This document shows positions 35,576-63,473 of a DNA stretch of 64,000 nucleotides, piece after piece. The DNA is from Halichondria panicea. Taxonomy: Eukaryota > Porifera > Demospongiae > Suberitida > Halichondriidae. The notes beneath the pieces are model-generated. The model saw only the letters and a list, made by a program, of their open reading frames with translations, was not told the DNA's origin and searched no databases. Made by a program: the position numbers and the translations under genes. Each line of letters starts with the position of its first letter. Positions within the stretch are counted from its first letter, which is position 1. Location: the NCBI RefSeq assembly GCF_963675165.1, contig NC_087377.1, positions 10,898,632 to 10,962,631 of the forward strand, read 5' to 3'.

Positions 35576-37069
35576 TCCCTTTCTTTTTCAGTACAAGTGG
35601 AACGTCAAGAGGCAGTACAGAAGTTCAAGAAGAGAAGACAGGACTAATCAGATATCTTCTCGAATATCTCTGGACTAATTATAATCATAGTAATGAGTAA
35701 TATTGCTTGATATGTTGAATTTGTGAGTCAGTATTAAATGACAGCCATTTTAAGAGCATGATATATAGCCAGTGCATATAGCATGCTTGTCAGAGAAAGG
35801 GAGCTGGAGCTGAACAGTGTGAAGAAAAGCAACACCTCAGGCTCTGGAAAAGCCTGCACTCATCACCCAGTGATTTTAGGCGCACGGTTTCTTAACCACG
35901 CCTATCTATTATTAATTTTGCAATTGTTGCTGAGTCATTAAAGATGGCGGAATTTTCTAGGTAAGAGAAATAGAGACTGAGAGGTCATCTGCCTCGTGGA
36001 AGCAATCGCAAATCTGAAGAAGCGCTTTGTAATCCAGGTTGTAGTCGTTTGGAAACCCTGTGCAGAATGTCCTGGAGAGGGCTGTACTTGGAGTAAATGC
36101 TGGGCAAGAAACTTACTTACTTACTCACTCACTTACTTAGTCAGACAACAAGAGGTGAAACATAGAAATAGTGCAATTTTTAAAATGACAATATTCATAC
36201 ATTTAAAACGTTCATGGTTATGAAATGAGAGATACAAAGAGAGAAAAGGCTAAATAAACTATCTGTCTATTCAGTTTCTTTATGTGGCCTTTCCCTGCAG
36301 AGATAGAACAGTTTGAACACAAGTCAAAATAAGTAAAATATTGCTAAACACGGGCAAACCCACTGCCAATCCTATGTAAAACCTACTGGTTTTACTAATA
36401 CTTGTAGCATTGCAGAAGCAGATTGCAGAAACTGCTTCTGAATGTAGATTATGTCGCCTTAAGGCAATCAAAATTCTGCACAAATAATAATGCAGGGGGA
36501 AATTAAAAACTGTATCTGGGTAAGGTTATCACAATTCACTGAGAAATTGTTTTAGGCTGTTGCCTGCTTCCAAAGATGATAGATTCCAGCTCATCTAACA
36601 AGGCATCTAACAGCCTTTCTTGAACTGCTCTAACTCCAAAGTTGCATCTAACGATGAGATAGCTTCTCCCTTATCGACACGTTAGGGGATGGAGCGTGCA
36701 GGTTCAGGGCAATGTCGGTGATCATTACCGGCTATCAAAGTCAACACCACGCTGTCAGACAAGCCATTGTAAAGCATATAAATTATGTGTGATTTCCAAC
36801 ATTAATTTGTCAATAATAAACACTGGTTGATGGATGTAGGTTACAATTAATGACATATGGAGTCCTACGTGAAGGACAAGCAAATGGACACAGCATATGC
36901 CTGGGGAACTAACTAGGAGCTCTTTGCATTGGCCCATATCTGCTCGGACGAAGGGTGTTTGTCTGCTCAACAATAGCACGCAATGCATGGCTGTGTCACT
37001 GTCCCAGCAAAATTGACCCCAACATCGCCCCTCCCCGGGACAAAAAGGGTCTGTATATACGTATCACAC
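35576..37069. other. Inserted and unique DNA, no supported gene
   Basis: Up to 36395 this is the rest of the insert in block D. A short plus-strand frame (EVQEEKTGLIRYLLEYLW) near 35615-35690 is open but unsupported. An ACTT/ACTC run lies at about 36113-36140. After block D (36600) nothing recognisable precedes the hAT-like element. Confidence 0.4.
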
Positions 37070-37211
37070 CAGGAGTGTAGCCAGGATTTTTTTGGAAGAT
37101 GGGGCAAACTTATCAGCCGCGCAGCGCCGAAATTTTGATCGGAAGCCACGCCTCTTAATTATGACGTCATAATTATTTAGTTGGGTGTGGCCTGATGCAT
37201 AGAAGAAGCTA

Positions 37212-40200
37212 CACAGCCAAAAATCCACGGGGCGTGTCAGGTCCGTTACATGTCCGTTACAGGACGTTGTGAACTTCCTGATACGGGACCGTTGGGTATA
37301 GACACTACTAAACAGGCCGGCCGTTCTAACAGGTGCTTCACATGCCGTTCTATCAGGTGCTTTACAGGCCGTTCTACAGGTGCTTTACAGGCTGTTGTGT
37401 TACCTATCATGCTATCATGATCATATTCAGCTACTGAATTGAGAAAACAATTGGCACACTTAAAATCTTTGAAGTGGTAATGACAATAGATATAAAAACT
37501 AAATAGGAAAAACTAAATAGAACTCATGCAGTATTGTTAATGCATAATGGTAATCGTGTTGTACTGAGAAGTACTTGTCAGTGTTTATCTCTTCCTTTTC
37601 TTTTGTGACTAAAGCTGTGGTAGTGATGGTGCAATTCTTGTTGCAGTCATGTACAATTGACACGGTCTTGATTAGGGTGAATCTTTATTAAGTGATTGGT
37701 TGTCTCCACTAGCTCACAATTTTGCTCGCTCATTCGTCCCACTTCCTTGTAGGGCAGCACCACCGCTACCTGCGTGTCGTCAGAAAACTTCAAAAGGGTT
37801 GTTAGTAGTCCATATGCAATCTGCAATGAGGAGACTGATGACAATGCAATAGTTAGTTGTGTTTTACCTTGTTATCATTTTCTCTTCTGTATAGGCCACG
37901 CTTTCTCCCAAGCTTCCCAACTTTCCGTCTATAGGTAAACTGATTTGTATATCAGCATCGGGATGTCTCTGTTTACACCTATGAAGAAGACATAGCCAGC
38001 CATTCTTAGTTCTCCTAGTGTTGTTTCCCCTTTCGGTAAACTGAACGTCACTTCTTTCAATGGTACTGCCTTAGACTGTTCCTGTAATGAAAATAATGTG
38101 CATTGAGCAATAGTACTGTATATACACTGTACCTTCCTCAGAGTTCCATGCTGGTAGATCTCCTTGGAAGAGTTGAGTGTGTGAGGGTGAATATTGAAGG
38201 CATACTGCCGCACTTCTTGAGAGGTGAGTAGCTAGATGGACTATAGATCATCTCCAATTCTAAGTGTGTGGGGAAAATAATCCATTTGATTAATTGATTT
38301 TATACTTAGGCCACATAACCCAGGCATATTCTATTAAAAATCGAAGATGGGAGGAGGCTTTTTTTCTTGGTAGGGCAAAAACTTCCGGCCACAACTTGGC
38401 CACTCCTCCTTACATGTCAGGAAAAGTACATACAAAAGTAGAAAAAAGAAAGGCACCATGTGAAGAGATGGTAATTAAACATGGCCATATTAAAGCAAAT
38501 AAAAGGATCCACGCATGTGGCCCATGAGGGGTCAAAAAATTTAGGCGGGAGGGCCTGAGAAACAAGTCATTAACTTTGTGTGGCCTTATGCCCAATAAAA
38601 CTAAAAGGTCCAGCTGTAGTGTATAAAGAGTACAAGTACATAATTATTATACTTTAAATGAATGCGTTATCTAGTCTGTTATACAATGTACCTTACTCTT
38701 ACTGTAGCATCTTCTGGTGCTACACCCTTGTTCACTAGGAAGTAGAGTTGCTCCATTACTGCAAATCTCTTGGCAATGTTACGACTCGATGACTGCCGAT
38801 TGGTGTGCAGGTTGTTGAGCTTCAATGGGGTTTTCTCTTGCATACTTTCTCTGTGCAAAAAGATTATAATTATGATGTTTCTTAAAACCCCTAAAGTCAA
38901 TTAATGTATACTCACTAGCAGGGCTAAATTATGGGTGTATGCTGTCTCGATCTCTCGGTCCATGGGAGCCTTCAAAGTTCTCACAGTCTCTTTGGCTAGG
39001 TTGCTAGGGGAAATCCTTTGTAAGGTTGGCAACCTAGCACCTATATAAAACCATGCTTTTGTGACAGCGTAATATTTTTTGTAACAGAACATATACCTTG
39101 CGCCTTTCATCGATACGCATGTCGCTCAACCTTTTTTGCACCATTTTAGAGTTATTGACAGTACCTCCGTGTCTGTCCTATCATCCATGTCCATACATAC
39201 TCTCATTTGTGCCTAGGTTTGTATAAATAACAATTCTGATTAATAACCTTGATGGCTTCGTCTCCTATTTCTCTACTTTCAGACATTAGGAATAGTTTAG
39301 CCAAATTCGAACTCAGAGAAACCTGCAATTATTGGATTATAATGTCAAGTTTTGAGAATGCTATCATGTACTTACACTCCACGACGTGCTTTCCACGGCA
39401 AAAACGTGAGAGTTTTTCTCAATCATCGTTTTTTAATGTGTCAATGGCCTTCTTGCTGTTTTGTTGTTCTTCTTGAACTTGTCTTAGTTTAGCTTTAATT
39501 TCCTTCAATTCCTTCAGCACTTCCTATGTGTTAGTAAAACTTAAAAATACATCAAATCACTGTCAGAATAGGATTGTGTGAGTGCTTGGTTGGGTGATTT
39601 GTGGAGGGTGCATTGCCTAGATGGTATAACCCCGCCATTAATCAGTTTTGTAGGAGCCAGTATACCCTCTGTATTTAACAAACATGTTGTCGATTGTATT
39701 GTGCACATATAGTTTATACCTTCTTTCTGTCTTGAATGACTTTGCAAGCAATGTCAAAACTTATGCTTGTGCTTAATTCACACAGAGCTCTCTCAACTGT
39801 GGTGGCTTCGATTTTGGCAGGTTCCAAACCCACAAAGTAAATTAGTACCAACGTTTTCCTACATTACGAATGTATTGTGTGCATTTGAGAAGGATACTTT
39901 TGTCACAATAAGCAATAATACTTACTTTCGTTCTTTTGTTTTGACTGTAGGTACGTCTGACGTCTTGAATGGAGCAGCAAATACCTGGCAAATGAATATT
40001 AACTACTGTGTATTCTATCTATAATTTTTACTTTAGATGTACTTGGAATGTTTGTATCCATATTCATTTGATTCATTAATGGTGTGGGTATGACAGCTGG
40101 AACTTGCCTCACCAAAAGTATGCACATGCTCAGTAATTATTATTATTAACGTGCCGTGTACAGGACGTGGTGGGTGCTACACCCTGATACAGGCCCGTAT

Positions 40201-40312
40201 TTACAGGCTGTAAACAGGATGTAGCCCCACGTCCTGATACAGGTCTGTTCACGGGCCTGTAACGGCCCGTTTTAACCTACGGCCTGAAATGGACTAGTGG
40301 ATTTTGGCTGTG
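37212..40312. mobile_element. CACTA/EnSpm-like 3.1 kb element with gene cargo
   Basis: The ends CACAGCCAAAAATCCAC and GTGGATTTTGGCTGTG are inverted. TA lies on both sides, and the related unoccupied site at 62644-62645 has one TA. Subterminal zones are packed with short repeats (CAGGTGCTTTACAGGC, GTCCGTTACA on the left; CCTGATACAGG, CGGGCCTGTAA on the right). CACNG ends, subterminal repeats and a 2-3 base duplication are traits of the CACTA/EnSpm group, so this is the nearest family, not a proven one. The interior carries spliced minus-strand coding exons instead of a recognisable transposase. Confidence 0.75.
37647..40076 (-). pseudogene. Multi-exon coding region inside the CACTA-like element
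   Basis: Candidate exons in reading order are 40076-40032 (MNQMNMDTNIPSTSK), 39984-39926, 39805-39720 (VERALCELSTSISFDIACK), 39523-39376 (coiled-coil EVLKELKEIKAKLRQVQEEQ), 39322-39248 (SSNLAKLFLMSESREIGDE), 39212-39097, 39040-38916 (ISPSNLAKETVRTLK), 38850-38697 (NIAKRFAVMEQLYFLVNKG), 38215-38133 (VRQYAFNIHPHTLNSSKEIY), 38081-37868 with uncertain inner splicing (VTFSLPKGETTLGELRMAG), and 37820-37647 to a stop. Introns are short with good GT/AG borders. A TGA at 39419-39421 interrupts the coiled coil and several neighbouring exon phases do not fit, so it is probably decayed, or I misplaced splice sites. I do not recognise the protein. A captured host gene is one reading. Confidence 0.5.
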
Positions 40313-40703
40313 TAGTTTAGCAAAGAACAAGAACTGTCTATAGATTTAGACCAGAATTGCTCACAGTATAGGGACTAAATCGTTTTGCTTGCCTACTAGC
40401 TAGCTAACTGCAGCAAGATTCGGAAGAAAGGGAGTGCTCAGCAAGATAATCAGCTACACTAACCTGAGCTGAGTATAGTAAAGATCCAGAAAAAGGGGGG
40501 CATTTGCCCCCTTTCCTCCCCCTGGCTACGCCACTGCACACTGGTAACCATTACCAAGTAGTACAATCAGTGACATGTATGTGTAGAACTGTCCCGTTCA
40601 CTGTTTAACACGTACGTATACGTACTCTCTGTGCGTCGGTTGCCCGTGGTTGTTACGTACAGGAGACTAAAAAATCAAAAATGGTTTACTGGCCCATGCA
40701 CTA

Positions 40704-62498: not shown

Positions 62499-63473
62499 AG
62501 GAGCGTAGCCAGGATTTTTGGAAGAGGGGGCAAAACGTAGCAGCCGCGCAGCGCCGAAATGTTGACTGGAAGCCACACCTCTTAATTATGACGTCATAAT
62601 TGATTTCTCTATTTAGTTGGGTGTGGCCTGATGTTTAGAAAGCTAGTTTAGCAAAGAACAAGAACTGTCTATAGATTTAGACCAGAATAGCTCACAGTTT
62701 AGGGACTAAATCGTTTTGCTTGCCTACTAGCTAGCTAACTGCAGCAAGATTGGGAAGAAAGGGAGTGCTCAGCAAGATAATCAGCTACACTAATCAGGGG
62801 CGTAGCTACCATTGTTTCCTGGTTGCCCAGAAACCCCCCCAGGAGCTGCTGAGAAAATTGGGCAGGGCTCCCCAATAATTGAAATCAAGCAGCCCTGCCC
62901 ATCTTTTCATGCACGTGGCTGCAAATCATGTAGAGATAGCACCGTGAATCGTTTCACGTTGGCTAGCTTTGTCTCAGCTAGCTAGCTAGCTACCTCAAAC
63001 AAAGAAGACCAAGACTTAAGTTCTAGTATCAATCCTGCATGCTCCAGTATTCTCAGACTCAGCTCTAAGCACAACTTTATTCGATATTCAGGAAGGACAA
63101 GTTTAGAACAATCTCAGCCACATGAAACCTCTCAGGTAAATGTAATGGTGCTCAGCTAGACTAGCAATACACAATTGACACCTGCCTTTTAGAATGTCTA
63201 TAGCTAGCTAGACTAGCTAGTCTAGCTAGCTTCTCACAAACAAGTAAAAAAGTCATTACAAACAATGAGCAGTAGGTGTGCCCCAATCAAGAGGGTGTGG
63301 CACAGGAAGTGGGCGTGGCTAAAATTTCCCGGCGCTACCGCGCCGCTGGTTTTTCAAAGGAAACCCCTATGTCAAAAGTCTGGCTACGCCCCTGACTAAC
63401 CTGAGCTGAGTAGTAGAGATCCAGAAAAAGGGGGGGCATTTGCCCACTTTGCCACCCCCTGCCTACGCCACTG
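62499..63473. mobile_element. hAT-like element, relative of 37070-40536
   Basis: AGGAGCGTAGCCAGGATTTT at the left and CTGCCTACGCCACTG at the right match the split element at 37 kb. It lacks the CACTA-like insert but is itself interrupted by 62795-63394. It serves as the empty site (TA at 62644-62645) for the 3.1 kb element. Confidence 0.8.
62795..63394. mobile_element. hAT-like mini-element nested in a hAT-like element
   Basis: Ends CAGGGGCGTAGC / GCTACGCCCCTG, with ACTAA bordering both sides. The uninterrupted reading is CTACACTAACCTGAG at about 40458-40472. The interior has an AGCTAG-rich stretch and GGCGCTACCGCGCC near the right end, and no gene. Confidence 0.8.

Follow-up and report, generated by a model that had tools for sequence, protein, structure and literature searches.

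An element at 37212–40312 of a 64,000-nucleotide window from the sponge Halichondria panicea raised the question of whether an animal transposon has captured a host gene. The original prediction, made from the sequence alone, described a CACTA-like transposon enclosing about a dozen minus-strand exons that were not recognized as a transposase. We compared the element with the genome (131 Mb, 39 contigs) and conclude with high confidence that it is a non-autonomous, internally deleted CACTA/EnSpm-like (CMC-type) DNA transposon, which has lost the core of its transposase and retains decayed terminal exons.

Boundaries and copies of the element

The exact ends and TA duplication first proposed for this element are supported by its inverted termini, with TA on both sides (Table 1). 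The empty relative noted near 62644 is also real. The joined flanks of the element (37060–37211 plus 40313–40560) align over 301 bp with 62499–62793 (90% identity), where only one TA stands at the junction. The flanks belong to a dispersed repeat and this site is a paralogous copy of it, not an allele; it demonstrates the TA duplication. The repeat that hosts the element has AGGAGNGTAGCCAGG-type inverted ends (37070–37211, 40313–40536 and 62499–62793), and a second repeat with similar ends of this type has apparently inserted into a repeat copy near 62.8–63.4 kb.

A 20-base end of the element has 91 exact occurrences genome-wide, some of them at the termini of related elements, L068 (described below) among these, compared with 0 for the pattern read backwards. 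TA directly precedes 80 of the 91, against an expected 1/16 (p ~1e-83). A DNA search with the window element gave at least 48 matches in the genome; a search of a phage collection gave none. A longer copy, L009 (C7:1959048–1963608, 4561 bp), has the same ends as the window copy and its own TA duplication, as do a deletion copy of 1522 bp on contig C12 (L010) and, with matching ends, a short copy of 1851 bp (L013), in which a check for genes found no convincing coding unit. A spacing of about 1.9 kb between ends on opposite strands recurs at several places in the window family and marks a non-autonomous subfamily, of which L013 is an example. A further locus on C3, L011, comprises the right half of the element. 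Tested as a full-length candidate, it contained e2–e8, and the zinc-finger, first-D and core segments were unmatched in about 3.1 kb beyond e8. No complete copy of the exact window family was seen among the best-scored candidates of the genome DNA and protein searches.

The window copy has a near-complete counterpart about 42 kb upstream, L012 (C1:10893732–10896774, 93% identity). An alignment of 4834 bp at 95% identity runs from the left end of the element on into the right flank, and two stretches of the left flank are also shared, of 515 bp (94%) and 326 bp (93%). Since they share these flanks and also the internal deletion junction, the two copies derive from one insertion followed by segmental duplication. 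Just inside its left terminus (~3947–4731 in L012 coordinates), L012 has an insertion of about 790 bp with CAGAGGAGGTTGG ends, apparently hAT-like.

An intron of the window copy contains a nested MITE, which we take to be PIF/Harbinger-like. Of four further MITE copies, two in L015 and one each in L016 and L017, three are flanked by matching TTA or TAA and the fourth by TTA and TCA. The MITE in the element is common to the window copy, L009, L010 and L012, and thus its entry preceded the split of these copies.

Table 1 Features of the element and its empty relative, in window coordinates
Feature	Position	Strand	Remarks
TA target-site duplication, left	37210..37211		single TA in empty relative
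Left terminal inverted repeat, CACAGCCAAAAATCCAC	37212..37228	+	17 bp, CACAG start
Left subterminal region	37229..37400		short ACAGGCCGTT-type repeats
Exon e16, C-terminal part of transposase unit	37544..37820	-	tblastn 91–94% to L009, split frames; frame broken
Exon e15	37881..38081	-	match to L009 exon peptide
Exon e14	38136..38231	-	32/32 residues identical to L009
Nested MITE	38309..38585		ends GGCCACA..TGTGGCC; 277 bp; flanking TTA duplication; in e13/e14 intron
Exon e13, from residue 8	38697..38814	-	E side of catalytic motif lost
Deletion junction	38810..38815	-	6-bp microhomology ACAACC; 1434 bp of L009 absent
Exon e8, first part only	38815..38850	-	fused out of frame to e13
Exon e7	38916..39040	-	10-bp deletion relative to L009
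Exon e6	39097..39212	-	1-bp deletion
Exon e5	39248..39322	-	
Exon e4	39379..39523	-	1-bp insertion; coiled-coil-like segment (judged by eye)
Exons e2 and e3, N-terminal part	39720..39983	-	short intron between; splice borders by eye; start codon tentative
Right subterminal region	40140..40295		short repeats
Right terminal inverted repeat, GTGGATTTTGGCTGTG	40297..40312	-	16 bp, one A fewer than left arm
TA target-site duplication, right	40313..40314		single TA in empty relative
Empty site (paralogous host-repeat copy)	62499..62793	+	90% over 301 bp

The exon remains and the transposase core

Comparison with L009 points to the origin of the exons. Ten minus-strand blocks of the window copy match exon peptides of this longer copy; the exons first noticed are real, but the gene is not intact and its frames are broken. 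The window copy retains, in order, e2–e7, the beginning of e8, e13 without its first seven residues, and e14–e16, and lacks the end of e8, the core, e10–e12 and the start of e13. L009 has all the exons of the window copy, in unchanged order, together with 1434 bp of additional sequence, and the two copies are about 88% identical on both sides of this stretch.

Read on the minus strand, the additional stretch and its edges give IHFITCSN...CDNPRASELTSHLGSAAKHYCRICM...KPKFHLFLHLHESM...NTERCESFNGLM. Transposases of the CACTA/EnSpm-Mirage-Chapaev type are characterized by D, D, C(2)C, H(3–4)H and E (PMC12730594). L009 has candidates, by motif only, for the second D (DNPR), C(2)C (CRIC), H(3)H (HLFLH) and E (ERCE), while none of the set is found in the window copy itself. 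The first D (YTDDTSGN or like) was seen only in the relatives L068, L024–L028, L030 and L033. In this family and its nearer relatives, the three matches to Pfam Transposase_21 were all under the curated cut-off of 28.6 bits, for the L009 core (E 1.6e-5, 24.7 bits), the L068 core piece (E 0.001, 18.7 bits) and the L027 reading (E 0.0065, 16.1 bits). The L009 core as a query matched C6:6795667–6796644 (E 2.4e-9, 25% identity), and the open frame of 793 aa at this locus passes the Transposase_21 cut-off with 64.5 bits. A PHROGs scan of the core found nothing. On motifs and homology, the additional stretch of L009 is predicted to encode a divergent CACTA-type transposase core.

The zinc-finger and first-D pieces had no match in L009, and the full-length gene of the window family is therefore modelled on a relative of 30–66% identity, L068/L069. 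This element occupies C7:6357246–6365632 including its TA flanks (~8.4 kb) and has TA-flanked CACAGCCAAAAATCCAC ends; the L069 left end is paired with the far right L068 end from the anatomy, and a second right end lies inside. It contains a nested element of the same kind. By tblastn, 10 of the 14 queried exon peptides matched L068 in order (e4, e6–e8, core, e10–e13 and e16; 30–66% identity), whereas e2 (with e3), e5, e14 and e15 had no significant match, e2 reaching E 0.41 in L069. The first-D exon of L068 reads VPLMLYTDDTSGN, and a C2H2 (zf-met) segment with a Met start is located between e8 and the core. Counterparts of the window exons stand on both sides of the catalytic core in L068, and e13 comes after the H(3)H motif in both L068 and L009. 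Exon e16 is also downstream of core-region exons in L043, L047, L046, L024 and L032, these being e10–e13 only in L046 and e12 and e13 only in L032. Because these five loci span only about 1.5 kb per side, the link between the N-terminal exons and the transposase comes from L009 and L068.

Thus, the view that the exons are not a transposase did not hold, since L009 and L068 have them flanking the catalytic core, in a unit common to the family; a match to a family-wide transposase or accessory protein is the outcome that the original prediction itself named as refuting it. The window exons are most readily read as what remains, 5′ and 3′ of the deletion, of a transposase unit that belonged to the element itself. 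With the exons as the broken ends of this unit and its catalytic middle deleted, the element is an ordinary defective transposon rather than a case of gene capture.

Five frame breaks were counted in the window copy, in e4 (+1), e6 (-1), e7 (-10), the e8/e13 fusion and e16. Adjacent +2/-2 gaps in e5, e15 and e16, possibly alignment noise, and an insertion in e15 are outside this count. Given the out-of-frame e8/e13 fusion and the other frameshifts, the window copy should make no transposase. The ten exons e3–e8 and e13–e16 (e2 was left out) differ between the window copy and L009 at 55 sites, distributed over codon positions 1/2/3 as 17/10/28 (28/55 third, p = 0.005), and vary less than the rest of the element (55/1319 vs 130/1664, p = 3e-5). 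This third-position bias and lower divergence indicate that the transposase unit was once under selection. That the truncated exons still yield a protein, for example a transposition repressor, could draw on the same bias (28/55) as a sign of constraint at some time, yet the five frame breaks, including the out-of-frame fusion, make it highly improbable.

We propose that the longer member of the family had a transposase unit of several exons, encoded on the minus strand. In the window lineage the catalytic core was lost through a deletion of at least 1434 bp, joined at the 6-bp microhomology. What was left of the unit, its N- and C-terminal exons, then decayed through small indels. The deletion may have originated by abortive repair after excision or by slippage. 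The resulting copy would be mobile only in trans, using transposase from other copies, as is presumably the case for many shorter copies with the same ends.

Accessory gene or captured gene

Two further readings concern where the exons came from. The better of them is compatible with an internally deleted CACTA-type element and assigns e2–e8 to an ancient accessory gene, the second gene of the element, leaving only the core and the C-terminal exons to the transposase gene. The TnpA gene of plant En/Spm occupies a comparable position. The zf-met segment of L068, with its Met start between e8 and the core, could start a separate transposase gene, and one locus (L056) has N-terminal exons without a significant core match; against this, strand and order are the same in L009 and L068. 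The gene structure of L068 between e8 and the core is blurred by the nested element in that interval. We regard an accessory gene as possible, though on balance not the probable arrangement. A CACTA-type lineage in which CACAG ends and TA targets are combined with a second conserved, coiled-coil-like gene (e2–e8) of no known domain is a tentative suggestion that we consider rather doubtful.

Gene capture, by which the element would have acquired its exons from a host gene, would fit the multi-exon structure, the lack of significant L068 matches for e2, e5, e14 and e15, and a Pfam scan in which six window exon peptides gave matches below the cut-off only (some of these were assembled by eye, and in the first two incompatible frames are combined). 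It is opposed by the collinear unit of exons and core in L009, by the L068 counterparts of exons from either side of the deletion, which flank the core, and by the position of e16 after core-region exons in the five additional loci. A donor gene carrying the same exons outside transposon ends was also sought in the genome. The N-terminal query gave 31 matches and the C-terminal query 23, and among the best candidates, which alone were scored, there were element copies, core-bearing relatives and fragments, and no donor gene.

Three loci among these matches have no nearby core. L063 (C1:5682446–5682614) is only a fragment of about 170 bp of e8 with an intron edge (95–96% protein identity), and no transposon ends were seen within 3.1 kb of it. 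L056 (C16:2716222–2716759) contains e4–e7 at 52–77% identity, beside one transposon-type end on the N-terminal side; the other end was not seen within 3.3 kb. L070 (C1:9030372–9030593) has e16 only, and an L046-type transposon end follows 291 bases downstream. None of the three looks like a host donor gene. We therefore consider capture very unlikely, and return to the element as a CACTA-type transposon broken by internal deletion.

Relation to known CACTA-type elements

Plant CACTA elements (En/Spm) have CAC ends, subterminal short repeats, internally deleted non-autonomous copies and 3-bp target-site duplications. The window family shares the first three of these features, but has TA in place of the 3-bp duplications, and its transposase is only distantly related. 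Its terminal repeats start with CA(C) and end with TG, as in CMC/CACTA-type transposons, and the 2-bp TA duplication of the window copy, L009, L010, L013 and L069/L068 is within the range of 2–5 bp for this type. The CACTA-like classification first suggested was upheld by the CACAG..CTGTG ends, the TA duplication and the divergent Transposase_21/CMC-type transposase in the family, and we file the element as CACTA-type (CMC) in the broad sense, with TA target sites. PIF/Harbinger and Tc1/mariner elements, considered from the TA target, were dropped given the transposase core. Of 26 frames listed from this genome, 24 pass the Transposase_21 cut-off on their own, among them open frames of 793 and 864 aa and two each of 546 and 601 aa. 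Other CACTA-type families are thus present in this genome, and some may be intact or domesticated.

The TRC elements (SmTRC1 and relatives) make up the branch of the CACTA superfamily found in animals and fungi (PMC1636069). By that description, the window family resembles TRC in its Transposase_21-like core with CXXC after D, 2-bp duplications and several exons (PMC1636069). Box A, reported in the same source as [LVI]-D-x-[LM]-H-x3-L-G for eumetazoan and most fungal TRC, is exact in L068 (IDCLHTILLG) and has E for D in L009 (IECLHTILLG), whereas box I is only partially matched, the first-D exon of L068 having VPLMLYTD followed by DTSG instead of G (PMC1636069). The ends of the present family start with CACAG, and the CCC core suggested for animal TRC in that text is absent from them (PMC1636069); for this reason we do not file the element as TRC proper.

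Within the CMCT clade (ESTA, Plavaka and EnSpm), as described in PMC12730594, the likeness is in the CA..TG ends and in the TA duplication, a feature of ESTA. Both ESTA and Plavaka are fungal families in this account (PMC12730594). Plavaka differs by its TGT..ACA or CATCA..TGATG ends, and EnSpm by 3-bp duplications in contrast to TA here, again by the descriptions given there (PMC12730594). The TA targets of the window family thus resemble those of the fungal ESTA lineage, compared by description. In a literature search we noticed no paper on the exact window family, which does not prove that none exists.

With these results, one candidate case of an animal CACTA-type element capturing a gene falls away. 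For annotation, they provide a family with TA targets and many short non-autonomous copies, whose divergent transposase exons are left unnamed by a plain Pfam scan and may be mistaken for host exons.
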